Below are positions 16,775-32,026 of a stretch of 64,000 nucleotides of DNA, in pieces (position 1 is the stretch's first letter; each line of letters begins with the position of its first letter). This stretch comes from Hyphomicrobiales bacterium (GTDB taxonomy: Bacteria; Pseudomonadota; Alphaproteobacteria; Rhizobiales; Rhizobiaceae), in assembly GCA_900469955.1 (NCBI GenBank), contig UBYX01000003.1:310001-374000 (forward strand), written 5' to 3'. The notes below the pieces were generated by a model that was not told the origin of the DNA, made no database searches, and worked only from the letters and a program-made list of their open reading frames with translations. A program made the position numbers and the translations under genes.

Positions 16775-17356
16775 TCAAGGCAAAAGCTCTATTTCGATGA
16801 AGTAAATGACACTGCCGTGCTCGGCGCTCACGTGAACATCGACATTCGCAGCGATCGAGCAAAGGACGTCCTCTCCTTCCGCCGCAAGCTCGATGCCATC
16901 CACCCTGACTGTACAGGCGCCCGTAAAGACGATTGCGGAAAGTGCCTTAACACCTCTGAGTACAATGTAACCGTCAAAGGCATGCCGTTGCACTCGATGC
17001 CAAGCGTGGCCACGAAAGGTCATGACGTTAAGGTCGGTGATCGGTGCGGCCAGACATCGTGCGGAAACCTCACTATCGCCGGAGAAGGGAAAGGGGTCGC
17101 ACAATGCCTGCATTTCCGGCTGCTTGACGCCATCCACCGTCAGTTGCATGCCGTCACCGGCAAGCACCGCGATCGTCCGGTCAATCCCGGGAAAGGGCGA
17201 GAAAGCACTCTCTCCCTCCACTGTCGCCAGGCTGATGCGCCAGAGAAACCGGCCATTCGGATCTCCTGACAAAGGTTCGGACGCCACCTCGCGGGTGACG
17301 CCCTTGCCATTTTTCCAGGGCATGACCCTATGACTGTCTGCTTTGAGAAGATGCAT
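16775..17356 (-). CDS. hutD: HutD/Ves family protein
   Basis: A 193-residue cupin-like protein, the last gene of the hut operon. It shows the HutD/Ves hallmarks: MPWKNGKGVTREVA near residue 12, WRISLATVEGESAFSPFPG near residue 40 and IDRTIAVLAGDGMQL. In pseudomonads HutD limits hut expression, apparently by binding formylglutamate or urocanate, but the mechanism is not settled. The start at 17356, 8 nt after the hutU stop with GGACCGGAG before it, is preferred; the frame is open far upstream inside hutU with no homology. Confidence 0.85.
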   Translation of the reverse strand: MHLLKADSHRVMPWKNGKGVTREVASEPLSGDPNGRFLWRISLATVEGESAFSPFPGIDRTIAVLAGDGMQLTVDGVKQPEMQALCDPFPFSGDSEVSARCLAAPITDLNVMTFRGHAWHRVQRHAFDGYIVLRGVKALSAIVFTGACTVRVDGIELAAEGEDVLCSIAANVDVHVSAEHGSVIYFIEIELLP

Positions 17357-17364
17357 CTCCGGTC

Positions 17365-19038
17365 CTAATTGCCGAGGATGCCCGGCAGGCGCAGGCCTTT
17401 TTCCTTCGCGCATTCCAACGCGATCTCGTAACCTGCGTCCGCGTGGCGCATTACGCCGGTGGCCGGATCGTTCCAAAGAACCCGCTCCAGGCGCTTCGCC
17501 GCATCGTCGGACCCGTCGGCGCAGATGACGACGCCCGAATGCTGAGAGAAACCCATACCGACGCCGCCGCCGTGATGCAGTGAGACCCAAGTCGCGCCGG
17601 AGGCGCAGTTGAGCAGGGCATTGAGGAGCGGCCAGTCGGATACCGCATCCGACCCGTCCTTCATGGCTTCCGTCTCGCGGTTCGGTGAAGCGACAGAGCC
17701 GCTGTCAAGGTGATCGCGGCCGATGACCACAGGCGCCTTCAGCTCGCCATTCTTGACCATTTCGTTGAAGGCGAGCGCCAGGCGGTGACGGTCGCCCAGA
17801 CCCACCCAGCATATGCGCGCCGGCAGGCCCTGAAAGGCGATGCGCTCGCGGGCCATGTCCAGCCAGTTGTGCAGGTGCTTGTTGTCCGGCAGCAGTTCCT
17901 TCACCTTCGCATCGGTCTTGTAGATGTCCTCGGGGTCGCCGGAGAGTGCTGCCCAACGGAAAGGACCGATCCCACGGCAAAACAGCGGACGGATATAGGC
18001 AGGCACAAAGCCCGGAAAAGCAAAGGCGTTTTCCAGACCCTCTTCCTTGGCAACCTGGCGGATATTGTTGCCGTAGTCGAGCGTTGGAACGCCTGAGTTC
18101 CAAAAATCGACCATGGCTGCCACATGGATTTTCATCGACGCCCGGGCGGCGGCTTCAACCGCCTTCGGATCGCTTTCCTGCTTCGCCCGCCATTCGGCGA
18201 CCGTCCAGCCGATCGGCAGGTAACCGTGAATTGGGTCATGAGCCGAGGTCTGGTCGGTCACGATGTCGGGATTAATGCCGCGGCGAACAAGTTCCGGGAA
18301 AATCTCGGCGGCATTGCCGATAAGGCCGACAGATTTGGCTTCACCAGCCTTGGTCCACTGATCGATCAGCGCAAGCGCTTCGTCCAAGGTATGCGCCTTG
18401 GCATCAACATAGCGGGTGCGCAGGCGAAAGTCGACGCGTGTCTCATCGCATTCGACAGCGAGGCAGCAGGCACCGGCCATGACCGCGGCGAGCGGCTGGG
18501 CTCCGCCCATGCCGCCGAGACCGCCGGTCAATATCCACTTTCCCTTCAGGTTGCCGCCGTAATGTTGGCGCCCGGCTTCCACGAAGGTCTCGTAGGTTCC
18601 CTGGACGATCCCCTGCGTGCCGATATAGATCCACGAACCAGCCGTCATCTGGCCATACATGGCCAGACCCTTGCGGTCGAGTTCGTTGAAATGTTCCCAG
18701 GTTGCCCAGTGGGGGACAAGGTTCGAATTGGCGATCAGAACACGCGGCGCATCCTTGTGCGTGCGGAACACACCAACCGGCTTGCCGGACTGCACGATTA
18801 GGGTCTCCTCCTCGGTCAGCGTCTTCAGTGTCGCAACGATGCGATCGAAATCATCCCAGGTGCGGGCGGCACGGCCAATACCGCCATAGACCACCAATTC
18901 ATGCGGACGTTCGGCAACGTCCGGATCGAGATTGTTCATCAGCATGCGCAGCGGCGCTTCGGTCATCCAGGTCTTGGCGTTCAACTCGGTGCCTTGCGGT
19001 GCACGGACTTCGCGGATGTTGTGGCGTGGGTTGCTCAT
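17365..19038 (-). CDS. hutU: Urocanate hydratase
   Basis: A 557-residue NAD+-dependent enzyme, the length usual for urocanase, converting urocanate to imidazolonepropionate in the cytoplasm (second hut step). Clear matches: the N-terminus [19 protein letters not shown], the Rossmann-like [13 protein letters not shown] near residue 172, the active-site Cys region [18 protein letters not shown] near 405, and [18 protein letters not shown] near 485. It starts 1 nt after the hutG stop and is followed 8 nt later by hutD, consistent with one polycistronic transcript. Confidence 0.96.
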
Positions 19039-19039
19039 T

Positions 19040-19849
19040 TTAGTTTCCCTTGGTCTTCAATTGATCCGCAACGGACTCAATGCGTGTCAGGAGCTCTTTC
19101 AGGTGTAGGCGCAGCTTTTCGGCCTTCCGCTGGTCATAGGCGAAGGGCGGCTCCTCGGTGGCCAGATGTGTAATCTGCGAAAGCTCCATCTGGATTGCAT
19201 GGACGCCTGTTTCCGGCCGGCCATAGTGGCGGGTGGTCCAGCCACCCTTGAAGCGGCCGTTGACGACGGCCCTGTAACCTTCCGCTGACCGGGCCACCTC
19301 GAGGGCAGCCGCCTCGATACGAGGATCGCAGGTGCGACCCATATCCGTGCCGATGTTGAAATCGGGCAACCGTCCTTCAAATAGGAACGGAATGAGCGAG
19401 CGGATGGAATGGCAATCATAGAGCACGGCGACACCGTGAATTGCCTTGACGCGTTCAATCTCGGCAAGAAGGGCCGCGTGATACGGAGCGTGGAAGTGTT
19501 GCAGCCGATAGTCGGTGTCACTCTTGCCCGGTTCTTCGCCTCGCTTCCAGATGGGCTTGCCGTCGAAGTCTGTCTCGGGGATCAGACCCGTCGTATTCTG
19601 GCCCGGGTAAAGGCTGGCGCCGGTGGGATCGCGGTTGGCATCAATCACGTAGCGATGAAAGGTCGCCCGCACTGTTGTGATCTGGGGCAGCAGGCCGCAG
19701 TAGAGTTCGTGGATGTGCCAGTCGGTATCCGCCAACAGGAGTCCGTTCTCATTCAGACGTCCTCTGACGTCCGGGGGAACCTCTGTCCCTGTATGAGGGA
19801 AGGCGAGAATGACCGGGGATGCGCCCTGAACGATTTCAAAGATCGCCAT
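19040..19849 (-). CDS. hutG: N-formylglutamate deformylase
   Basis: A 269-residue zinc hydrolase of the N-formylglutamate amidohydrolase family, the last catabolic step: N-formyl-L-glutamate to glutamate and formate. Family features are [14 protein letters not shown] near residue 12, [10 protein letters not shown] near 45, [20 protein letters not shown] near 68, LYDCHSIRS near 140 and [16 protein letters not shown] near 205. Its presence with hutF shows the five-step pathway rather than the formiminoglutamase (four-step) route. The ATG at 19849 lies 1 nt after the hutH stop; the upstream open frame is a shadow of hutH. Confidence 0.93.
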
Positions 19850-19850
19850 A

Positions 19851-21386
19851 TCAGCCCTCCAATCCGGGAAGCAGACCATCCGAGACGCTGGCGACAAGTG
19901 ACCCGTCCGCCACGAGAGCACTTGCCGCAGCGAGATCCGGCGCCATGAAGCGATCCTCTTCAAGGGTCCGGACGACCGCCCGCAAAGCGGCCACCGCCTT
20001 CTGCAGCTCAGGCCCGGTGGTCAGCGGTGCGCGGAAGTCGACGCCTTGCGCGGCCGTCACTGCTTCGATGCCGATGATGCCGAAAAGGTTTTCTGTCATC
20101 TGCAGCAGCCGGCGCGCACCGTGGCAGGCCATGGAGACATGATCCTCCTGGTTAGCCGAAGTGGGTGTCGAATCCACCGAGGCGGGATGAGCCATCTGCT
20201 TGTTTTCGCTCATCAGGGCAGCCGAGGTGACTTCGGCAATCATCAGGCCGGAATTCAACCCCGGTTTCTTGGCCAGGAAGGCCGGAAGACCGTATGAAAG
20301 GGTCGGATCGACCAAAAGCGCTATGCGACGCTGAGCGATCGCGCCGATCTCGCAAACGGCAATGGCAATCTGATCTGCGGCAAAGGCAACTGGCTCGGCA
20401 TGGAAGTTGCCCCCGGAAACGACGCTGTCGTCGGATAGAACCAGCGGATTGTCGGTAACGGCATTGGCCTCGATTTCGAGCGTCCGGCCGGCCATGCGCA
20501 GTAAATCCAGGCAAGCACCGTCGACTTGCGGCTGGCAGCGGATGCAATAGGGATCCTGCACTCGCTCGTCACCCTGCAGATGGCTTTCCCGGATAACCGA
20601 GCCGGCAAGCAGGCCACGCAATGCCGCCGCCGTGTCAATCTGGCCCCGATGGCCACGCAAGATGTGAATATCGGCTACAAATGGTGCGGACGAACCCATC
20701 GCCGCGTCGGTCGAAAGCGCGCCGGTGATCAAAGCGGCCTGCGCTGCTCGATGGGCGCGAAAAAGCCCGGCAAGCGCCAGCGCCGTCGAAGCCTGAGTGC
20801 CGTTGATCAGCGCAAGTCCTTCCTTGGCGGCGAGAATGACCGGGGCGAGCCCGGCGCGATCCAGTGCCACACCGCCCGGCAGCCGCTCGCCTTCAAAAAA
20901 GGCCTCCGCCTCGCCCATCATTACCGCCGCCATATGCGCGAGCGGCGCCAGGTCTCCGGATGCGCCGACAGATCCTTTTTCCGGGATCAGCGGTATCACT
21001 CCCTTTTCGAGCATACCCTCGATCAGGCGCACCAGTTCGAGCCGCACGCCGGAAGCGCCACGACCAAGCGAGACCAGCTTCAGCGCCATGATCAGGCGAA
21101 CGATGTTTTCCGGCAGCGGCGCGCCAACACCGCAGCAATGCGACAGGATCAGATTGCGCTGCAGCACTGCCGTATCGCTGGCGTCGATCTTGATCGATGC
21201 GAGTTTTCCAAACCCGGTGTTGACGCCATAGACCGGTTCGTTCCCTGCTGCGATGGCGGCAATTCGGCCAGCCGCGCGTTCAATGCCAGCATCAAAGCTG
21301 CGATCCAGAACGGCACGCCCGGCATTCCGGTAGATCGTCGCGAGTTCGGCGAGCGAAACGCGACCGGGATGAAGTGTTATCGTCAC
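19851..21386 (-). CDS. hutH: Histidine ammonia-lyase
   Basis: A 511-residue lyase (the Pseudomonas putida enzyme has about 510) that removes ammonia from L-histidine to give urocanate. The MIO cofactor precursor Ala-Ser-Gly is at residues 142-144 within [14 protein letters not shown], exactly the classical position of the catalytic Ser143. Other matches are [35 protein letters not shown] and [20 protein letters not shown]. Translation starts at GTG 21386, preceded by AGGAG and overlapping the hutI stop (GTGA); an in-frame ATG further upstream lies inside hutI. This is the functional HAL of the operon. Confidence 0.95.
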
Positions 21387-22615
21387 GATGAAACTCCTGA
21401 CATTGATGTGGAGGCCAGCTCGCCCCGCCAGATCCGCCGATACAGCGGATTGAAGCCGATCCGGTAAACGAGTTCCGCCGGGTTCTCGATATTCCAGATG
21501 GCGAGATCCGCCTGCTTGCCGACTTCGATGGTGCCGATGCTGTCCAAACGTCCAAGCGCACGCGCTGCCTCCCGTGTCACGCCGGCCAAGCATTCCTCCA
21601 CCGTCAGGTGAAAGAGAGTAGCACCCATGTTCATGGTCAGCAGGAGCGAGGTCAGCGGCGATGTGCCGGGATTGCAGTCCGTAGCGAGCGCCATTTTCGT
21701 TGCATGGCGGCGGAACAGATCGATCGGCGGCTTCTTCGTTTCACGGATGAAATAATAGGCGCCCGGCAGCAGTACGGCGACCGTTCCGGCCCTGGTCATG
21801 GCGGCAGCCCCTTCGCTGTCGGTATATTCCAGGTGATCTGCAGAGAGCGCGCCATAATCAGCTGCAAGAGCCGCGCCTTGGAGATTGGAAAGCTGGTCGG
21901 CATGCAGCTTGACCGGCAGGCCATGCGCCCTCGCCGCCTCGAACACCGTTCGCATCTCGTCCGGCGCGAACGCAATGCCTTCGCAAAAACCATCCACGGC
22001 ATCGACGAGCCCTTGCGCATGGGCGGCATCAAGTCCCGGCAACACCACCTCGCGGATGAAATCGCCATTGCGGCCCTTGTAGTCTGCCGGCGTCGCATGG
22101 GCGCCGAGATAGGTGGTGGTGACGTTGATCTTGCGCTCGTTTGCCAGGGAACGCGCCGCGCGCAGCATCTTGCCTTCGTCCTCGACGGTCAGGCCATAGC
22201 CGGACTTGATCTCGACGGTGGTCACCCCTTCCGCCAGCAGCGCATCCAGGCGCGGCAGGCTTTCGGCCACAAGATCCGCTTCGCTTGCCTCTCTCACCTG
22301 CCGGACGGACGAAACGATTCCACCGCCCGCACGGGCGATTTCCTCGTAGGTCGCCCCGGCGAGCCGCATTTCGAATTCCCGCGCGCGGTTTCCGGCGTGG
22401 ACGAGATGGGTATGGCAATCGATCAAACCCGGCGTGATCCAGCGACCGCCGCAGTCGACGACAACGATACCATCGGCCACGGGGACGCTTCTTTCATCGC
22501 CAACACAGGCAATGCGGCCATCTTCGATCAGAATAGCCCCATCTTCGATCACTCCCAACCCAGCGCGGTTCGGCGACATGGTTGCCAGCCTTGCATTGCG
22601 CAACAGCATAGTCAT
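21383..22615 (-). CDS. hutI: Imidazolonepropionase
   Basis: A 410-residue amidohydrolase-superfamily metal enzyme opening the imidazolone ring to give N-formimino-L-glutamate (third hut step). The metal ligands are in [16 protein letters not shown] near residue 70, and the substrate-binding stretch [15 protein letters not shown], the VEIKSGYGL segment, KLHADQLSN near 240 and [12 protein letters not shown] near 315 (metal-binding Asp) are characteristic. Its start overlaps the upstream lyase-like gene (ATGA) and its stop overlaps the hutH GTG, so it is translationally coupled on both sides. Confidence 0.95.
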
Positions 22616-24120
22616 AGCGTCTCGCTTTCCGATCCAATACGGGTCATGCCAATGAGGGCGCGGACCCGGGCGATCAGTGCATTCAGCGGCTGATCGTCCC
22701 GATAAAAAGGTACCTCGGCCCGGACCAGGTCATAAAGCCGCCCCGTTCGAGCGGCCTTTGCTGCCGATCCCGCCTGCTGGTCGTAGGCCTGCGCAGCCGC
22801 CGCCACTTCGATTGCGAGGATGGTCTGCAGATTTTGAAGGATCCACAGCGCCTTATCGGCGGCCGGCGTGGCATGGGTCAAAATGTCTTCCTGCAGCCCG
22901 GACGTGATGCCGCCATCGAGGCTCGCAGGCGCTGCCAGACGGCGGTTTTCCGCTACCAGCGCCGCCGCTGTGTACTGGATGATCATGAAACCGGAACACA
23001 CGCCGCTTCCAGCGGCAAGAAATGCCGGCAGGCCGCTCACCAGCGGGTTCACAAGCCGGTCGATCCGCCGTTCGGATATTGCCGCGAGTTCGGCTGCAGC
23101 CGTCGCCATGCTGTCCATGGCCAGGCCCAACCCGGCACCGACTGCATGAGCCTGCGAATGCACCTGCGGCGCTTCGGGTGAGCCGGTCACGACGGGATTG
23201 TCGGTAATGCTCGAAAGCTCGCCATCGACGACCTCCACGGCCTGCCGCAAGGCGTCGCGGACAGCGCCATGGATTTGCGGCACCGCCCGCAGGCTCAAAG
23301 GATCCTGGGTCCGTCTTCCAGCCGATTGCGCCAGAAGCTGACTTCCGGCAAGCCACTGGCGCAGATTTCGCCCTACCTGTTGCAATCCGGCGGAGTGACG
23401 CAGGGAAAGCGGGATTTCGGCAAACGGATCAGCCTGAGCGCCGAGGTTTTCGTATGTCATCGCCGCAGCCGCATCCGCCCAGTCGAGCAGGTGATAGAAG
23501 CGGGAAAGCGCCAGCGCAGCAAGACCGGTCGCACAGGGCGTGCCGTTGACAAGGCTCAAGCCTTCCTTCGCCTTCAGTGTAACCGGTTCAAGACCGAGCC
23601 GCTTCAGCGCCTCGCGCCCCGCGATCAATTCGCCGGCGTGTCTGCATTCCCCTTCGCCTATCAGCACAAGACCGATCGCGGCAGCATGGGTAAGATAACC
23701 GACCGAGCCGCGAGACGGGATAACGGGCAGAAAATCCGCATTCAAGAATGCCAGAAGCGCCTCGACCACTTCAACGCTGATGCCGGAAAAGCCGTGGGCA
23801 AAATTTGCAATCTGCGCGGCCATGACCGCGCGCGTCTCGGCCTTGTCGAGCGGATGGCCGACGCCGCAGGCATGGCTCAACAAAATGTTTCGCGACAGGG
23901 CCTGCTGGTCGTTCCGATCGATAATGACATCACAGAGGGCGCCAACACCGGTATTGATGCCATAGCCGCGGATTTCCCGTTCGACCAATGTATCGACAAT
24001 TGCGCGCGCCTTTGAAATCCGCTGCCAGGCTTGGACCGAAAGAACCAATTCGTTGCCATTGGCGACTGCCGCAATCTCCCTCCAGGTCAAAACTTTATCG
24101 AGAACGACAACGTCAACCAT
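22612..24120 (-). CDS. HAL/PAL-family protein lacking the MIO Ala-Ser-Gly
   Basis: A 502-residue protein homologous to histidine ammonia-lyase through its length ([67 protein letters not shown]). At residues 142-144, where the ASG tripeptide makes the MIO electrophile, it reads Tyr-Leu-Thr ([10 protein letters not shown]). By family knowledge it should not be an MIO lyase. It may bind histidine or urocanate as a regulator, form mixed oligomers with HutH, or act differently. It sits between hutV and hutI with ATGA overlaps, so it is clearly part of the hut operon. Often annotated hutH2 in rhizobia. Start ATG 24120 overlaps the end of hutV by 8 bp. Confidence 0.85.
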
Positions 24121-24943
24121 GATGGGCTGCCTCTGCGCTGGCACGGCGCTGCACGAAACGAGCAACATAGTCATCTGCCGGCGTATTCAGAATCTGGCTT
24201 GGCGTACCGACCTGCACGAGCCGGCCGTCTTTCAAAATGGCGATCTCCGCCCCGATGCGCAGCGCCTCATCGAGATCGTGGGTGATGAAGACGATGGTCT
24301 TGGAGAGGTTTTTCTCCAATTGCAGGAGCTGGTCCTGCATATCGCTGCGGATCAGCGGATCCAGGGCCGAAAAGGCCTCATCCATCAGGATCACGTCGGT
24401 ATCGGCTGCCAGCGCGCGCGCAAGGCCAACGCGCTGCTTCATGCCACCGGAGAGCTGATGCGGATATTTGTGTTCGTAACCGAGAAGACCGACTGTCTCG
24501 ATCCATTTCATACCGATCGGACTGGCCTCTGCCTTGCTTAAGCCCCGCACACGCTGGCCATAGACCACGTTCTGCAACACCGTCCGATGCGGCATCAGGC
24601 CGAAGCTCTGAAATACCATGCTGACGCGGCGGGTGCGGAATTGCCTGAGATCGCGAGGATTAAGGTCCAGCACATTGCGACCGTCCACGAGGATCTGCCC
24701 GCTGGTCGGCTCGATCAGGCGATTGATATGGCGCACCAGAGTTGATTTTCCCGAACCGGAAAGGCCCATGATCACAAAGATGCGCGCTGCGCCGATCGTC
24801 AGACTGATATCGTTGAGACCAACGCTGCATCCGGTGCGCTCAAGAATTTCGCCCTTTTCGGCGCCGTCGCGCGCCATGGCCAGCGCTTCACGTGAGTTTC
24901 GGCCGAAGATCTTGAAGACGTTGCGGATCTCTATCTCAGCCAT
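24113..24943 (-). CDS. hutV: Histidine/urocanate ABC transporter ATPase
   Basis: A 276-residue ATPase of the glycine betaine/proline (ProV/OpuAA) type, without the C-terminal CBS domains of ProV. Walker A GLSGSGKST is near residue 58, the Q-loop FQSFGLMPHRTV near 105, signature LSGGMKQRVGLARAL near 165 and Walker B VILMDEAFSALDP near 185, with the switch His in FITHDLDEA. It powers import by HutW/HutX. The ATG at 24943 overlaps the hutW 3' end by 8 bp, supporting coupled expression. Substrate assignment comes from its place in the hut operon. Confidence 0.92.
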   Translation of the reverse strand: MAEIEIRNVFKIFGRNSREALAMARDGAEKGEILERTGCSVGLNDISLTIGAARIFVIMGLSGSGKSTLVRHINRLIEPTSGQILVDGRNVLDLNPRDLRQFRTRRVSMVFQSFGLMPHRTVLQNVVYGQRVRGLSKAEASPIGMKWIETVGLLGYEHKYPHQLSGGMKQRVGLARALAADTDVILMDEAFSALDPLIRSDMQDQLLQLEKNLSKTIVFITHDLDEALRIGAEIAILKDGRLVQVGTPSQILNTPADDYVARFVQRRASAEAAHHG

Positions 24944-25793
24944 TCTGGCCGTCCTCCAGCTTGGACCGGCCGAAGCCTTGGGTAATACGGTCAAGGACGA
25001 TGGCCAGGATAACGATACCCAATCCGGCCTCGAGCCCTTTTCCGACATCGAGCGTCTGAATGCCGTTCAACACCTGTTCGCCGAGACCCCGCGCGCCGAT
25101 CATGGAAGCCACCACGACCATCGAAAGAGCCATCATGATCGTCTGGTTGAGACCCGCCATGATCGTCGGGGTCGCAAGCGGCAGTTCGACGCCGAACAGG
25201 ATCTGCCGCGGGCTGCCGCCGAAGGCGGTTGCCGCCTCGACAACCTCGCCGTCGACCTGGCGGATACCGAGATCGGTCAATCGGATCAACGGGGGAACAG
25301 CATAGACAATGGTGGCCAGCACAGCCGGTACCTTGCCGAGTCCGAAAAGCATGATCGCAGGAATGAGGTAGACGAAGCTTGGCATGGTCTGCATCACATC
25401 AAGAACCGGGAGCGTGATGCCACGCATGAGGCGGCTCTTGGCCAGCCATATGCCCATTGGCACACCAATGGCGACCGAGATCAGCGTTGCCATCAGCATC
25501 AGAGCGAGCGTCTGCATGGCCAGATCCCATAGACCGAGCGCTCCGATCACAAACAGCATCACCGCCACGATCACGACAAGGGCAACCTTGCGGGTTGCCT
25601 GCCAGGTCAGCGCCATGAAGGCGATGATCACCAGCCACCAGGGCAAACCTCGCACGATCCACTCAATGAACAGGATGGCCTGCAGGATCGTCTGTGAAAT
25701 CGCCTTGAAGACAAAGCCGTAATTAACCACCAGCGACTGCACCGCCGTGTTTATCGGCCCGCGGATGGAGATATGGAAGCTGTCGGGAAACAT
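24936..25793 (-). CDS. hutW: Histidine/urocanate ABC transporter permease
   Basis: A 285-residue inner-membrane protein with about six hydrophobic spans (for example IIAFMALTWQ region near 58, LVVIVAVMLFVIGALGLW near 75, LALMLMATLISVAIGVPMG near 100, and the C-terminal GLGIVILAIVLDRI). The EAA-type loop that docks with the ATPase reads DGEVVEAATAFGGSPRQILF near residue 190. It belongs to the ProW/OpuAB permease group used for betaine and, in rhizobia, histidine and proline. The gene follows hutX after a 106-bp gap that contains a strong hairpin. Confidence 0.92.
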   Translation of the reverse strand: MFPDSFHISIRGPINTAVQSLVVNYGFVFKAISQTILQAILFIEWIVRGLPWWLVIIAFMALTWQATRKVALVVIVAVMLFVIGALGLWDLAMQTLALMLMATLISVAIGVPMGIWLAKSRLMRGITLPVLDVMQTMPSFVYLIPAIMLFGLGKVPAVLATIVYAVPPLIRLTDLGIRQVDGEVVEAATAFGGSPRQILFGVELPLATPTIMAGLNQTIMMALSMVVVASMIGARGLGEQVLNGIQTLDVGKGLEAGLGIVILAIVLDRITQGFGRSKLEDGQNG

Positions 25794-25899: not shown

Positions 25900-26937
25900 C
25901 TATTTCAACGAGGCTTCGATCTTGGCTTTGGCTTCGGGCGAAACCCAGGCGCTCCAGACAGCACCCTTGGTCTTCAGGAACTGGTTGGCGGCGGCAACCG
26001 CGTCAGCCTTCTGATCCACCATGTAAGCGAGGCTCGCATTCACCTCTTCCAGTGGGAAAGTCGCCTTTTCCAGGATTTGGATAATTTCAGGCGCCTCCTT
26101 GGCGAAGGTGCTGTTGACGCCGTAGGCCACTTCGACTGCCGGGAAGGCGCAGCCGGCTTCGCGCTTGCCGGTGGCGCTTGTCAGCTCCTTCCAGCAGGCT
26201 TCGTCGTAAGCGGGCTCCTCAAGCTGAACCAGCTTGAACTTGCCCATGACGGCCGTCGGGCTCCAATAGTAGAACAGCACCGGCTCGCCCTGCAGATACG
26301 CCGAACTGATGGCCGCATCGAGCGCGGTTCCCGTACCCGGGCGGAAGTTCACATAGGCATCCGTCAGCTTGTAGGCTTCGAGCTTGGCGGTGTTGACGCC
26401 TTCGCAAGTCCAGCCGGACGGGCAATTGAGGAAGCGACCCTTGGAAGGTTCTTCCGGATCCTTGAACAGCTCAACGATCTTCGGATCGGAAAGCTGCGAG
26501 ACGCTCTTCAGGTCGGGCGCCAGCGGCTTAACGCCCCGAGCCTGGTCTCCCTTAACGAGATATTCCGGCACGAACCAGCCTTCGGAAGCACCGACAAACG
26601 TCTTGCCGACCGAAGTGACCTGGCCCGCTGCGGCGGCATTATTCCAGACATCGGAACGGCCAATCCACTCCTCGGCAAAGATCTGCACATCATTGTTGGC
26701 AGTTGCCTGCTCCAGAGTGACCGAATTACCGGGAATAGAGTCCACCTTGCAGTCATAACCTTTGGACAGGATCGCCTTCATCACTTCAGTAATGAGGGCG
26801 CCGCTCTCCCAATCGATGCCGGCAAAGGTGACGGTCTTGCCGTCTGCGCAATAGGTAGCGGCGTTGGCACCGGTGATGGAGCCTCCGAGCATCATTCCGG
26901 CGGCAAGCAGTGTGTATTTCAGTTTGGCACTCAGCAT
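25900..26937 (-). CDS. hutX: Histidine/urocanate ABC transporter substrate-binding protein
   Basis: A 345-residue periplasmic protein of the ProX/OpuAC group. A Sec signal peptide occupies about residues 1-27 (hydrophobic LLAAGMMLGGSITG, cleavage after ANA). The mature part begins with VTFAGIDWESGALITEVM and contains several Trp and Tyr residues that form the aromatic box of this group. Four Cys in the mature chain (YDCKV, LNCPSGWTCEG, DEACWKE, AGCAF) suggest disulfides. AAAAGGGGA before the ATG is a good ribosome site. Position at the head of hutXWV supports histidine or urocanate as ligand. Confidence 0.92.
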   Translation of the reverse strand: MLSAKLKYTLLAAGMMLGGSITGANAATYCADGKTVTFAGIDWESGALITEVMKAILSKGYDCKVDSIPGNSVTLEQATANNDVQIFAEEWIGRSDVWNNAAAAGQVTSVGKTFVGASEGWFVPEYLVKGDQARGVKPLAPDLKSVSQLSDPKIVELFKDPEEPSKGRFLNCPSGWTCEGVNTAKLEAYKLTDAYVNFRPGTGTALDAAISSAYLQGEPVLFYYWSPTAVMGKFKLVQLEEPAYDEACWKELTSATGKREAGCAFPAVEVAYGVNSTFAKEAPEIIQILEKATFPLEEVNASLAYMVDQKADAVAAANQFLKTKGAVWSAWVSPEAKAKIEASLK

Positions 26938-26984: not shown

Positions 26985-28355
26985 CTAGGCCAGTTTTAGA
27001 AGAACCTCCCGGAACGCATTGTCGATTGCCTCCTCATTCCTGTGGCGACCCTCGCGGACGACCCATTGTCCTGCAGCCATCACGTCGCGAACCGCTTCGG
27101 CTCCTAGCGCAAACAGCCAACGGCCGAGAATCTGATCGCCGGAAGCCGCGCCGATGAACGGATTATTGCCGTTAAGGACCACAAGATCGGCTCTTGCTCC
27201 GACGCGGATACCGCTAGAGCGCATTCCTGCCGCCTGGCCGCCTCCGGCGAGCGCCGCATCGAACAGGGTCCTGCCGACGGACGCGCCCGGACCGCTGGCG
27301 AGCCGGTTGCGGCGACGATCGCGCAATCTCTGCCCATATTCCAAAAGACGCAGCTCTTCTGCGACCGTCGTCGCGACATGACTATCGGTGCCGATGCCAA
27401 AACGTCCGCCAAAGCCGGCGAAATCCGTTGCCGGAAAAATTCCGTCGCCCAGATTGGCTTCAGTTGCCGGACAAAGTCCGGTCACCGCTCCGGAGCGGGC
27501 AAGCCGCCTTGTCTCGTCCGCGGTCATATGCGTGGCATGAATGGCGCACCACCTGTCGTCGACCGGCATCTCGTCGAGCAGGAATTCCGCCGGTCGGCGT
27601 CCGCTCCAGGCGATGCAATCCTCGACCTCGCGCTGCTGCTCGGCGACATGGATATGGATGGGACCGCCGGTTTCTTCCGCAGCCAGAATAGTCCGCATTT
27701 CGTCCGGCGTCGCGGCCCGCAATGAATGGATTGCAAGACCCAGCGTTGCCCCCGCAACTTCGCAATCGGGCTTCAGCGCCTGCAAAAGTGCGAGAAACTG
27801 ATCGACATCATGGATAAAGGGGCGCTGCCCCTCACCTGGTTCAGTTCCGCCAAAACCCGCATGGGCATAAAAGACCGGCAGATGGGTAAGCCCTATGCCG
27901 GCGGCTTGCGCAGCATGCAGAATCCGGCGGGATGTTTCTTCCCCGCTTGCATAACGGCGACCACCCGCAGCATGATGGAGATAGTGGAATTCGATGACGT
28001 GGCCGAAGCCACCCTTGAGAAGTTCACTGTACAACTTGGTGGCAACAGCCTCAATGTCATCCGGGGACATCCTGCCGACAAGCCGGTACATCGCGTCACG
28101 CCACGTCCAGAAACTGTCGTCCGTCGTCCCGGCCAGCTCTGCAAGGCCCGCCATGGCACGCTGAAATGCATGGGAATGCAGATTTGCCAGGGCTGGGACG
28201 ACCGGACCGGCTGCTTCAACGAGGGATGACTCTATCACCGCATTGGGTTCGATCGCAGCAATTAGGCCTTCGCCGCTGATGGTCAAGACCACGTCCGACG
28301 CCCAACCTTCCGGAAGCAAAATCTGTCTGCACAGGAGAGTTTGAGATGTCGCCAT
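26985..28355 (-). CDS. hutF: Formiminoglutamate deiminase
   Basis: A 456-residue amidohydrolase converting N-formimino-L-glutamate to N-formylglutamate and ammonia, the fourth hut step. The metal site LANLHSHAFQRAMAG is near residue 58, followed by FHYLHHAAGGRRY near 122, AIHSLRA near 205, IHVAEQQREVEDC near 233, HATHMTADET near 268 and GTDSHVA near 322 with the metal-binding Asp. It is the first gene of the operon, preceded by the regulatory gap shared with hutC, and GAGGTCGG lies upstream of the ATG. Confidence 0.94.
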   Translation of the reverse strand: MATSQTLLCRQILLPEGWASDVVLTISGEGLIAAIEPNAVIESSLVEAAGPVVPALANLHSHAFQRAMAGLAELAGTTDDSFWTWRDAMYRLVGRMSPDDIEAVATKLYSELLKGGFGHVIEFHYLHHAAGGRRYASGEETSRRILHAAQAAGIGLTHLPVFYAHAGFGGTEPGEGQRPFIHDVDQFLALLQALKPDCEVAGATLGLAIHSLRAATPDEMRTILAAEETGGPIHIHVAEQQREVEDCIAWSGRRPAEFLLDEMPVDDRWCAIHATHMTADETRRLARSGAVTGLCPATEANLGDGIFPATDFAGFGGRFGIGTDSHVATTVAEELRLLEYGQRLRDRRRNRLASGPGASVGRTLFDAALAGGGQAAGMRSSGIRVGARADLVVLNGNNPFIGAASGDQILGRWLFALGAEAVRDVMAAGQWVVREGRHRNEEAIDNAFREVLLKLA

Positions 28356-28490: not shown

Positions 28491-29225
28491 ATGATCGAGG
28501 GCGACCAGACCATCAAGGCTTCGGGTTCACGCGAGCTTCCGATTTATGAGCGGCTAAAGGCGGACATCAAGAAGCGGATCGAAACCGGCGAATGGCCCGC
28601 GCATCACCGCGTGCCTTCCGAAAATGAAATCGCCGAAACCCTGAATGTCAGCCGCATGACGGCCAACCGCGCCTTAAGAGAACTTGCCATGGAAGGCGTG
28701 ATTGTCAGGGTGCAGGGCCGTGGATCCTTCGTGGCGAACAAGAAGCGAAGCGCGCCGTTCATGGGTGTCCGCAATATCGCCGACGAAATTGCCGAGCGGG
28801 GTTCCACCCACAGGCCTCAGGTCATCCTCGCCCAGACCGAGGTCTGCGGGCACGATCTCGCCGAAGCCATGAAAATCGAGGTCGGCATGCCTGCCTTCCA
28901 TTCCGTCATCTTGCATCACGAAGATGATGTGCCGATCCAGCTGGAGGATCGCTTCGTCAACCCTGCGGTGGCCCCGGACTATCTGAGCCAGAATTTTCAG
29001 ATGACGACGCCCAATGCCTATCTGACGCTGATAGCGCCGATCTCCCACACCGAGCAATTCGTTGAGGCCGTGCTCCCGCAGCCATGGGAATGCAAGCACC
29101 TGGCGATCGCCCGTTCCGAGCCCTGTCTGCTGATCCGCCGGCGCACCTGGTCCGCTGACCGGATCGTCACATCCGTCCGTCTTCTCTATCCAGGCACCCG
29201 CTACCGTCTGGAGAGTTCTTCCTAG
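28491..29225 (+). CDS. hutC: GntR/HutC-family repressor of the hut operon
   Basis: A 244-residue transcription factor. The N-terminal winged helix carries the GntR pattern PIYERLKADIKKRIETGEW, then VPSENEIAETLNVSRMTANRAL near residue 43 (written here as two joined parts) and VRVQGRGSFVA; the C-terminal UTRA ligand domain starts near residue 90 and includes EDRFVNPAVAPDYL, typical of HutC. HutC proteins bind urocanate, which releases them from DNA. Divergent placement beside hutF supports the role. The neighbouring gap contains candidate operators. Confidence 0.93.
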   Translation: MIEGDQTIKASGSRELPIYERLKADIKKRIETGEWPAHHRVPSENEIAETLNVSRMTANRALRELAMEGVIVRVQGRGSFVANKKRSAPFMGVRNIADEIAERGSTHRPQVILAQTEVCGHDLAEAMKIEVGMPAFHSVILHHEDDVPIQLEDRFVNPAVAPDYLSQNFQMTTPNAYLTLIAPISHTEQFVEAVLPQPWECKHLAIARSEPCLLIRRRTWSADRIVTSVRLLYPGTRYRLESSS

Positions 29226-29621: not shown

Positions 29622-30287
29622 CTAGCTGCCCAGATTGCGGAGAAATTTTCCTCCGCCTTCCTGCACCCGGTTGAGTTTGATTGGGCCGAGTTGGGCGAGG
29701 AAGGTAAAGTGTTCCAAGGCGCTCACCTTCTTCAATGTCTCGGGAGTACCGCTTCCGCCCATGGCCAGCGCAGGAAAGTAGCCCAAGACCTCTCCAACCC
29801 TCAAAAATCCATGCTTTTTGAGGGTTTTGGCGAGAACAGGTTTAGCGCTTTCGGGGTCCAGAAGATCGTAGAAACCCTGATCGAGATAAAGAATGGAGCT
29901 TACTATGGCGCCCATTCCTCGCTCCTTTGCCTTCTTGTTGAGTAGGCTGGTCGCCTCCAGGCGCGGCAGGTCGATTTCCATCGTCTCGTTCCAGTCCGCA
30001 TTCCAGACGAAGAGCCGCCCAATCGCTCCATAGCCATAGATGAAGGTCCGTTCAGGCTTGAAGTCCGCGTCGCCGGCAAAGATCAACCGGCTAAGCTCCG
30101 TCATTTCGATAGGATTGCAGAATTGAAACCGGCCTCTTTGCCAGACCCCAACGCCAGCCTCCTGCAGGAAATCGATGAACTCGGCAGGAAACACCTCCCG
30201 CAAAGATTTCAGGTCATCGGCGGCTACGGTCTTTACGTCAGTGAAATCGCCGTATTCGGAAACCAGATACTGAAAATCCTCGTGCAT
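29622..30287 (-). CDS. tdi: Tdi-like immunity protein (GAD-like / DUF1851)
   Basis: A 221-residue cytoplasmic protein. The N-terminal FPAEFIDFLQEAGVGVWQRG (about residues 30-49) followed by FQFCNPIEM matches the GAD-like domain, and the C-terminal part from about 140 the DUF1851 region, the pair found in Agrobacterium Tdi1. It should bind and neutralise the DNase encoded just upstream, protecting the producing cell. The ATG at 30287 lies 8 nt after the toxin stop; an in-frame ATG at 30314 overlaps it. Assignment comes from domain pattern plus gene order. Confidence 0.82.
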   Translation of the reverse strand: MHEDFQYLVSEYGDFTDVKTVAADDLKSLREVFPAEFIDFLQEAGVGVWQRGRFQFCNPIEMTELSRLIFAGDADFKPERTFIYGYGAIGRLFVWNADWNETMEIDLPRLEATSLLNKKAKERGMGAIVSSILYLDQGFYDLLDPESAKPVLAKTLKKHGFLRVGEVLGYFPALAMGGSGTPETLKKVSALEHFTFLAQLGPIKLNRVQEGGGKFLRNLGS

Positions 30288-30295
30288 ATCTTTGT

Positions 30296-30928
30296 TCAGA
30301 CTCCCGGTTTGCATCGCTGCAGCTTTATGTTCATTTTGTCCGCGCCATCTTCTTTGGCATCCTTGGCCATGTCCAGCAACTCTTGGCGGCGGGCCGGCCA
30401 ATTGCCTCCGATGGAACGGTTTTCGCTCTTCGGGCCGACACCGGACATCGAGCCATCACCGCCGCCACCCCAGTCGAGCGTATGAAGCGCATCTAAGCCT
30501 TTCATCATACGACCGACCTCGGACTTAACCGCGGACCTTCTCTCTGCCGCTCCCATCCCGCCTTTTTCTAGCTCGGCATCAAGCATTGAACTGAGCTCGC
30601 GCTCAGCCCTCAATCGTTCCGATGCTCGCGCGGCACCGTCACTAGGACGTCCTTTGAAGTTCTTGAGTGCGGTCTCCAATTCATCCGGCGTCAGATTATT
30701 GAGGGCTGCCTCCTGCATTTCAAGCTGACGATCGAACTCCTCATCGTTACCCTTCTTGCCTTTTTTGAAGCACTTCACTCGTTGTTTGCAGTTGCGGCAA
30801 ATTTTGCCGCCTTTTTTCGCGAGCCGTTTCAGAGTCTGCTTTGATTGCCTCTTCAGATACTGCTGAAGAACTTTCTTTGCAGCCAACCGCAAGAGTATGC
30901 CACCAACGATAACTATAGGAGCCGCCAT
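30296..30928 (-). CDS. tde: Tde-like T6SS DNase effector (Ntox15, HxxD)
   Basis: A 210-residue toxin. The C-terminal half resembles Ntox15 (Toxin_43): CRNCKQRVKCFKKGKKG near residue 45, then DALHTLDWGGGGDG with the catalytic His-x-x-Asp at 149-152, and NRSIGGNWPARRQELLD near 172. Ntox15 effectors of Agrobacterium (Tde1, Tde2) are DNases that need a Tap adaptor for loading on VgrG. The N-terminus MAAPIVIVGGILLRL is hydrophobic with a Gly pair and resembles that of the second effector in this locus. It follows its adaptor gene by 6 nt and precedes the immunity gene by 8 nt. Confidence 0.85.
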   Translation of the reverse strand: MAAPIVIVGGILLRLAAKKVLQQYLKRQSKQTLKRLAKKGGKICRNCKQRVKCFKKGKKGNDEEFDRQLEMQEAALNNLTPDELETALKNFKGRPSDGAARASERLRAERELSSMLDAELEKGGMGAAERRSAVKSEVGRMMKGLDALHTLDWGGGGDGSMSGVGPKSENRSIGGNWPARRQELLDMAKDAKEDGADKMNIKLQRCKPGV

Positions 30929-30934
30929 CGAGGA

Positions 30935-31894
30935 TCACCTACCTCCGTCGGTTGCGGCCGCGCTTTCCATCGCATTGCGAAGGCGCTGCGCCGGCGTGAG
31001 TTTCAAATCGCGGCTGTCGCCGCCAGCTCCTGACTTGACATAGTTGACGAGCTTGCGATCAAGCGCCACCTCGCCTCGACTGGCGACGTAGAGAAAGGCC
31101 CAATCGCCCAAGTCCTCGTCCGTATGCAGACCCAGCTTGTTACCGGATACCCGCGCCTTGCCGACTTGCCTATGGAGCTCCGCATCGTCGATATCGTCGA
31201 CGACTTCCGGCGCAGTCTCACGCAGATATTCCGCGATGGATCTCGCGCTTTTGTTACGGATCGCCTCCTCCAGACGATCGATCTGCTCATTCGTCAGCCT
31301 CAAGGGTCCGGTCGGAGGTCGGGGCAGGCCACCGGAACGCATGGCGCGCTTGAGGCCCCGCTCCTCCGTGGTATTGAACAGGATGACCGGAGCTGGACCG
31401 AAGAAGCGGGCTAATTGCTCAGGCGTCAGGACCGGCAACAGATCGCTGAGAACGGTCGGATCCCAATGTCTGAACAGAACCCGCTCATATTTCACCGACT
31501 TGCCATAGGCTCCGTCGTTGCCCGGGGCATTCTGGTCTGGAATGAGAATCTCATTGATGGTCCGCAGATGCCGCCATAACACCTCTTCACCGTCGGGGCA
31601 GGACCAAAAAACGGCACATGGCATTTCGAGTGCAAGCCCCTCGACGTGCTCTCGTGCGGCACGCTCCCTGACGTTCACGAACCAAGGCCCGTCGCGGCGC
31701 ATCTCTCGATCGCCGCCCTCGCGAAACAGCGAACGGCACGGCACACCAACTTCGTTGAAATCATCTTCGAGGTTTTCGAAACATCCACCGTCAAGCACGG
31801 AAAAAATCGGCTGTGGCAGCCTGTCGAGGCTGGCACTGAGACGGCGCGCGCCAGTGTCTGAATCCGAAGTATCGGACTGGGATCTGTCCTGCAT
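30935..31894 (-). CDS. DUF4123 effector adaptor (Tap/TEC), module 1
   Basis: A 319-residue adaptor of the DUF4123 family, needed to load the neighbouring Tde-like DNase onto VgrG. The domain covers about residues 20-145, with PIFSVLDGGCFE, MRRDGPWFVN, AVFWSCPDGEEVLWRHLRTI and YERVLFRHWDPTVL. The C-terminal half (EEAIRNKSARSIAEYLRE...) is helical. GGAGG lies 6 nt before the ATG at 31894, which is preferred over in-frame ATGs at 31906 and 31918. It is a clear paralog of the adaptor at 33513-34451 (same motifs, same length), so the module has been duplicated. Confidence 0.88.
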   Translation of the reverse strand: MQDRSQSDTSDSDTGARRLSASLDRLPQPIFSVLDGGCFENLEDDFNEVGVPCRSLFREGGDREMRRDGPWFVNVRERAAREHVEGLALEMPCAVFWSCPDGEEVLWRHLRTINEILIPDQNAPGNDGAYGKSVKYERVLFRHWDPTVLSDLLPVLTPEQLARFFGPAPVILFNTTEERGLKRAMRSGGLPRPPTGPLRLTNEQIDRLEEAIRNKSARSIAEYLRETAPEVVDDIDDAELHRQVGKARVSGNKLGLHTDEDLGDWAFLYVASRGEVALDRKLVNYVKSGAGGDSRDLKLTPAQRLRNAMESAAATDGGR

Positions 31895-32026
31895 GTAAAC
31901 CTCCATCCTTTGCCCCATAAGTCATGCCCGTCACAGCCGCGTCGCCCTCGATGGCTCCAAAGCTTCCTTACGAATTTTGCAGAAAGGCATATCCCTTGCC
32001 TCACATTTCTCTCAAAGTTGGTTTGC

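Follow-up and report, generated by a model that had tools for sequence, protein, structure and literature searches.

The window, the 64,000-nucleotide stretch of DNA from a Hyphomicrobiales bacterium analysed here, contains a hut operon with the gene order hutF-X-W-V-[MIO-less lyase]-I-H-G-U-D and a divergent hutC. The features are as follows.

28491..29225, plus strand: hutC repressor gene, divergent from the operon (TIGR02018, over cut-off)
26985..28355, minus strand: hutF, formimidoylglutamate deiminase (TIGR02022, over cut-off)
25900..26937, minus strand: hutX, OpuAC-type substrate-binding protein (PF04069, 199.3 bits)
24936..25793, minus strand: hutW, betaine-type ABC permease (best matches are the choline and ProW permease models, both below cut-offs)
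24113..24940, minus strand: hutV, betaine/proline-type ABC ATPase (TIGR01186, 343.7 bits, cut-off 326.6; scanned as a longer ORF, start inferred)
22612..24120, minus strand: MIO-less HAL-fold lyase of HutH2 type, 502 aa, a proposed histidine-betaine trimethylammonia-lyase
23683..23712, minus strand: the shortened MIO loop, codons 137-146 (position derived from the start of the ORF)
21383..22615, minus strand: hutI, imidazolonepropionase (TIGR01224, over cut-off)
19851..21389, minus strand: hutH, ASG-containing HAL (TIGR01225, 714.3 bits, cut-off 539.15; GTG start inferred)
19040..19849, minus strand: hutG, N-formylglutamate deformylase (TIGR02017, over cut-off; scanned as a longer ORF, start inferred)
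17365..19038, minus strand: hutU, urocanate hydratase (scores under the cut-offs of the two thiourocanate hydratase models)
16775..17356, minus strand: hutD (PF05962, 142.2 bits; start inferred)

Curated NCBIfam cut-offs are passed by hutF, hutI, hutH, hutG, hutU, hutC and the ATPase HutV, and those of Pfam by hutX and hutD. HutU scores 696.2 bits against the thiourocanate hydratase model (cut-off 930) and 711.1 bits against its S-methyl counterpart (cut-off 880), and no second urocanase-type match at E<=1e-200 was found in its own genome. HutX carries tryptophans at positions 91, 176 and 225; in E. coli ProX, the counterparts of Trp176 and Trp225 in the alignment are the cage residues Trp140 and Trp188. 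As judged from this alignment, the pair would allow a quaternary-ammonium ligand but is no proof of one. No palindrome was found between hutF and hutC at the set threshold, a promoter scan returned 0 sites (shuffles, 3.6), and there were 9 terminator-like sites against 11.3 expected. Elsewhere in the window (29622-31918, minus strand), DUF4123, Ntox15 and GAD-like/Tdi1 proteins lie in a row suggestive of a Tde-type effector of type VI secretion, accompanied by its chaperone and immunity protein.

The lyase ORF runs on the minus strand from an ATG at 24118-24120 to a stop at 22612-22614; it overlaps hutV by 8 bases at its start and hutI by 4 at its stop. The original prediction described an intact, in-frame gene of 502 residues, overlapped on both sides and lacking ASG, and each of these points stands. 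It also placed the MIO triplet at residues 142-144 in both HAL-like proteins of the operon. That numbering is correct, with YLT in the lyase and ASG in HutH counted from its GTG; the implied replacement is not. The lyase loop reads GSVG-YLTH and has three residues fewer than HutH between the common GSVG and the next common GE, so that the ASG triad is best read from the alignment as deleted rather than swapped, and the shared numbering is partly coincidence.

To place this loop in its family we assembled 101 sequences: 80 loci from a scan of named genomes, 20 further loci and the window itself (without deduplication; L065 and L147 share one contig and are both counted). The scan, which used patterns from the window lyase, returned 101 relatives, and its best 80 loci were kept, at 52-94% identity. 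The nearest relative among these 80 is from Neorhizobium alkalisoli, and most are Rhizobiaceae by title. With the window included, ASG is present in 0 of 101 sequences, GS[VAL]GY in all 101 and His145 in 100. The family loop signature is GS[VAL]GY[LI]x[HD], the YLTH loop of the window lyase recurs in S. meliloti 4H41 (L123), and the HALs found beside MIO-less lyases keep the HAL-type loop (24/24). Purifying selection on the gene, as had been supposed, is borne out by dN/dS values of 0.09-0.15 in pairwise comparisons of the window lyase with five orthologues. A sequencing or assembly error, or a pseudogene, is ruled out by these dN/dS values together with the lack of ASG in all 101 relatives.

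Within the order, 21 of 297 genomes (own included) hold a place at least 49% identical to the window lyase. The own genome matches at 100% and the 20 others at 49-64%, with a clear gap to the remaining matches listed (41% or less). All 21 also have a further HAL-family match, an assignment made at family level. At least 60 plasmid records are listed at 57% identity or more, some of them unannotated, as are the 80 genome loci; where family members are annotated, they are mostly named 'histidine ammonia-lyase'.

Profile scores do not favour this name. Against the HAL equivalog TIGR01225 the window lyase scores 454.4 bits, under the cut-off that HutH exceeds, and it lies under both curated HAL cut-offs; the aromatic amino acid lyase superfamily model PF00221 matches at 504 bits (cut-off 27.3). 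We compared active sites in a 40-row alignment that includes 21 MIO-less family members. Y53, H83, Q272, R278, N308 and E411 are kept in 21/21 family rows, and N192 in 19, with Ser in the other two. All seven positions are common to the family and HAL, where Arg278 corresponds to Arg283 and Glu411 to Glu414, and Tyr53 and His83 are likewise kept. In the set of 101 sequences, the near-invariant residues specific to the family include Tyr142, His145, His284, His325, Asp354, Arg355, Tyr383 and His416.

Two positions that matter for HAL activity differ in the family; P. putida HAL mutants Y280F and F329A appear in PDB titles. At the HAL Tyr280 position, Tyr is present in 9/9 ASG/TSG rows and Leu in 21/21 family rows. 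Leu also occupies this position in 5/5 ergothionase-cluster lyases, the T. denticola ergothionase, Parac_L188 (a shortened lyase that we placed with the ergothionases) and L186, and L027, another MIO-less sequence with a GMAD loop, has Ile. The Phe329 position is Ala in 19/21 family rows, Thr in L147 and Pro in L066. A Lys present in all six ergothionase rows aligned (L188 excluded), the catalytic Lys384 in T. denticola, is Tyr383 in the window lyase and is preceded there by Gln382. L186 itself is an Acidisoma gene (L202, 10676-12217) of another MIO-less type (GSVGYLIATAHI), with a divergent urocanase (833 bits) in its neighbourhood, along with ORFs resembling genes for CoA-linked enzymes. The lyase of L201 (G479:C15:16347-17810) has ACG as its triplet and Leu where HAL has Tyr280, and lies beside a urocanase-like gene.

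An AlphaFold2 model of the window lyase (mean pLDDT 86.4, pTM 0.90; residues 401-412, which include Glu411, below 50) predicts the HAL fold, with Z scores of 44.0 to HAL 7tqr, 43.3 to P. putida HAL 1b8f and 42.0 to ergothionase 6s7j. This comparison does not separate HAL from ergothionase (44.0 versus 42.0). Given that the HAL positions Tyr53, His83, Arg283 and Glu414 are kept and that Tyr280 is replaced by Leu as in the MIO-less ergothionases, the window lyase is probably an enzyme. The earlier premise that lyase activity is lost without ASG is accordingly too strong, since ergothionase (6s7j), of the same fold, is a MIO-less lyase that releases trimethylamine; the suggestion that the protein may catalyse something else was the sounder one. 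The lack of MIO in ergothionase and its trimethylamine product are described in the excerpted text of PMC13405746.

Among the PDB matches of the window lyase, no MIO-less enzyme other than ergothionase has a known activity. The ergothionases (T. denticola 6s7j; L068, L067, L189-L191) share the HAL fold, the lack of MIO and the Leu at the Tyr280 position, and they keep Tyr53, Arg and Glu where the row covers them. In contrast, the window lyase is only 27% identical to that of L190, its loop is three residues shorter than that of HAL whereas the ergothionase loop is one residue shorter, and it has Tyr383 in place of the ergothionase Lys. Ergothionase also goes with a thiourocanate hydratase partner, while the window HutU lies below both such cut-offs. 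The window lyase shares fold and substrate-holding positions with HAL (35% identity to 1b8f, 39% to the window HutH) but differs from it in lacking ASG and in its Leu and Ala at the Tyr280 and Phe329 positions. In the tree, the 21 family lyases form one side of a branch with support 100/100 and seven ergothionase-type rows form another group (99/90), with ASG lyases lying between the two. AU tests nonetheless do not reject one common MIO-less group (p 0.343 and 0.536), so that MIO may have been lost once or independently of ergothionase. A search of 240 genomes for outgroup lyases to root the tree gave two weak matches only, both below cut-off, which were used as extra rows.

Gene neighbourhoods were read at the 101 loci with 25 reference proteins over roughly 8-10 kb on each side, or a shorter stretch where the contig ended sooner; since similarity to the window lyase decided which loci were taken, the shares given here are no census. 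Betaine-type ABC genes lie directly upstream of the lyase at 51 loci (or 52 if L146 is counted, whose ATPase reads as two ORFs), amino-acid ABC genes at 17 and neither type at 33; a single amino-acid-ABC binding protein was scanned, and it belongs to the Lys/Arg/Orn-His type. In the stretch read, hutC is present at 84 loci, any hut gene at 88 and none at 13. A HAL gene is found nearby at 24 loci, window included, and is missing from the stretch read at 77. At 19 loci, no hut gene other than hutC was found to accompany XWV and the lyase. In Aureimonas, considering the cluster only, the MIO-less lyase is the sole hutH within hutC-F-H-I-G-U-D. Among the 33 loci with neither transporter type, A. 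vitis L139 has another OpuAC-type transporter beside hutC and the lyase, whose binding protein scores 98 bits with Lmo1422 and 91 bits with EgtUC. EgtUC is ergothioneine-specific and binds hercynine about 10,000-fold less tightly, according to the portion of PMC9732360 consulted; by its sequence, the distant similarity of the L139 protein would indicate only the ligand class. Some loci with amino-acid ABC genes carry a solA-like N-methyl-tryptophan-oxidase gene near the lyase (L155, 13498-14643; also L058, L063 and L142), and in a Novosphingobium MAG (L137, 6296-7819) a choline-sulfatase gene (787 bits) is divergent from the MIO-less lyase gene.

We take the window lyase to be orthologous to hutH2, the 'putative histidase' gene in the hutXWV operon of S. 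meliloti. The locus on pSymB of S. meliloti Ak57 has the same order, with hutC divergent from hutF-X-W-V-lyase, and its lyase is 71% identical; hutI, hutH, hutG, hutU and hutD follow the lyase in the window but are absent from the 19 kb shown for Ak57. Boncompagni is said to have reported in 2000 that S. meliloti hutX and hutH2 mutants grew about 30% less on histidine and that HutXWV carries histidine and proline.

The clearest case comes from Pseudogemmobacter humi. In 27 family-carrying genomes, hand-picked from the 80 named-genome loci, a strong HAL match (at least 553 bits to the window HutH) is present in 25; none was detected in Pseudogemmobacter humi and one Novosphingobium MAG, although the P. 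humi genome is a draft and the absence no proof. In P. humi, hutC, F, W, V, the lyase, I, G and U form one group and hutX is close by on the opposite strand; the HutU joined to its MIO-less lyase is of the plain type (913 bits). A separate cluster in this genome encodes a thiourocanate hydratase (1021 bits, cut-off 930), ErtE (570, cut-off 520), an OsmF-type binding protein and an ergothionase-like lyase with the loop GSVGCGD (the two regions are L204, 8604-19600, and L203, 4905-14315). P. humi thus keeps a sulfur pathway apart from the MIO-less lyase, as a sulfur-free betaine substrate predicts.

On pAt of A. tumefaciens Ach5, a 61% identical family member follows genes for ErtE, an S-methyl-thiourocanate hydratase, an S/N-oxide reductase and ErtD, as well as XWV. 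Of these, ErtE, ErtD and the hydratase score over cut-off, and identity to the window proteins is 68% for X, 78% for W and 76% for V. Position 383 of this member is Leu, unlike in hut-linked members. Searches for the S-methyl-thiourocanate hydratase at the set thresholds covered 397 genomes from the order and 398 from the phylum and found it in none of them, nor in any of 14 control genomes, so that absence is not shown; among the 40 of 56 plasmid records listed, matches at 80% or more come only from five A. tumefaciens records and one of Lichenihabitans. The latter, on a plasmid of Lichenihabitans psoromatis, encodes a hydratase 82% identical to that of Agrobacterium, and an ASG-bearing HAL-like lyase (L187, 13709-15241) lies amid annotated GST, Zn-dependent hydrolase, urocanate hydratase and amidohydrolase genes, the likeness of the clusters being one of annotated names, with only the lyase scanned. 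This lyase perhaps acts on a thiohistidine with a free amine. Since a similar-looking cluster holds an ASG lyase, such a cluster alone does not predict a MIO-less one.

We are now able to propose a function for the window lyase. On balance, we think it probable that it is a MIO-free trimethylammonia-lyase converting hercynine to urocanate and trimethylamine. The observations behind this proposal are the loss of the MIO triad, the conservation pattern, the predicted fold and the gene context, from which we infer the substrate, the product and all residue roles. HutXWV, an OpuAC/ProU-type importer, would take up hercynine (N-alpha-trimethyl-L-histidine). The hercynine biosynthesis gene egtD was not found in the own genome, in a search whose control matched one archaeon, below cut-off; the compound would accordingly come from outside. 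The roles of the corresponding residues in HAL are known. In the lyase, Arg278 would hold the carboxylate, and His83 and Glu411 the imidazole, while Tyr53 would take the beta proton and trimethylamine would depart. MIO would be dispensable here, as the substrate brings its own good leaving group, trimethylammonium, and ergothionase provides the precedent for its departure without MIO. Deletion of the triad and the change of Tyr280 to Leu would give space for the bulky amine, with Tyr142, His145, His284 and His325 probably in the rebuilt site. Urocanate would then enter HutU-I-F-G and relieve HutC, a repressor that senses urocanate.

Hercynine fits because the kept HAL positions suit an imidazole and a carboxylate, and because the product must suit HutU or, in hutC-only loci, the repressor; the plain urocanate hydratase of the window fits a sulfur-free product. 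The lack of the triad in 101/101 sequences, the betaine-type ABC genes upstream at 51/101 loci and the P. humi and pAt contexts all argue in the same direction. Against this reading, the transporter type varies (17 loci with amino-acid ABC genes, 33 with neither type), 13 loci have no hut gene in the stretch read, S. meliloti hutXWV and hutH2 were reportedly tied to histidine, the Lichenihabitans cluster holds an ASG lyase, the ert link comes from one plasmid lineage, P. humi is a single draft genome, Asn192 is Ser in 2/21 rows and the structural model is weak at Glu411.

Several other explanations must be weighed. The lyase might eliminate trimethylamine from a sulfur-bearing relative of hercynine, be it ergothioneine, S-methyl-ergothioneine or the sulfonate, as its A. 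tumefaciens relative in an ert cluster with an S-methyl-thiourocanate hydratase and the ergothionase precedent among the PDB matches would suggest. We nevertheless regard this as unlikely, given a genome with a plain HutU and no second urocanase-type match at the E-value given above, the Tyr383 in place of the ergothionase Lys, the separate cluster that holds the thiourocanate hydratase in P. humi, and the Leu383 that sets the A. tumefaciens member apart from the hut-linked ones. A plain ergothionase is ruled out for the window lyase by the Lys position and the HutU type. It is rather unlikely, too, that the leaving group is removed from some other N-modified histidine or betaine: the solA-like N-methyl amino-acid oxidase beside the lyase in some loci and the choline-sulfatase in one Novosphingobium locus are compatible with this, but hutC or other hut genes at 88/101 loci argue for urocanate as the product.

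The remaining alternatives retain histidine or HAL itself. The original prediction raised a sensor of histidine or urocanate, or a partner in hetero-tetramers with HutH; in either role the protein would be catalytically dead. HAL-fold proteins do form tetramers, the lyase has no MIO, and a HAL gene lies nearby at 24/101 loci, window included. We find such a role very unlikely, as the stretch read contains no HAL gene at 77 of the 101 loci, no HAL was detected in the P. humi genome, and the lyase has not only kept Tyr53, Arg278 and Glu411 but acquired near-invariant pocket residues of its own. Deamination without MIO of histidine, or of another of its relatives with a primary amine, would suit the position in a hut operon, the amino-acid ABC transporters at 17/101 loci and the growth defect on histidine that S. 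meliloti mutants reportedly show. Ammonia is a poor leaving group without MIO by the established chemistry of the family, however, and the HAL Tyr280 position is Leu in 21/21 rows and the Phe329 position Ala in 19/21; moreover, 25/27 genomes checked keep a real HAL. This activity is highly improbable.

The trimethylammonia-lyase reading for hercynine touches on several published observations. No description of a hercynine lyase was found in the literature searched, with key subscription papers outside it, and the Agrobacterium member may be described already: the excerpt of PMC13405746 cites Yan 2022 for A. radiobacter. Nor did the available portions of that literature contain a statement that S. 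meliloti HutH2 lacks MIO. In the parts of the sources consulted, hercynine was detected in 9/10 cyanobacterial strains (PMC3826126), histidine betaine in soil crust was depleted by organisms to which the authors were unable to put a name (PMC4595634), and S. meliloti hutH2 is listed among putative targets of selection (PMC3410850).

If the proposal is true, the 'histidine ammonia-lyase' names of family members are wrong, and a missing step of hercynine degradation has been found. It would further show how a lyase that loses its cofactor also changes its leaving group, and would mean one more bacterial source of trimethylamine. We put at about even the chances of the broader picture, in which a second type of MIO-free lyase, made from the HAL scaffold by deletion of its cofactor triad, would be the entry enzyme of hercynine catabolism in rhizobial hut operons, and some bacteria, such as P. 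humi, would run their hut operon on histidine betaine rather than histidine. The hut operon could then use hercynine, a soil compound, as food.
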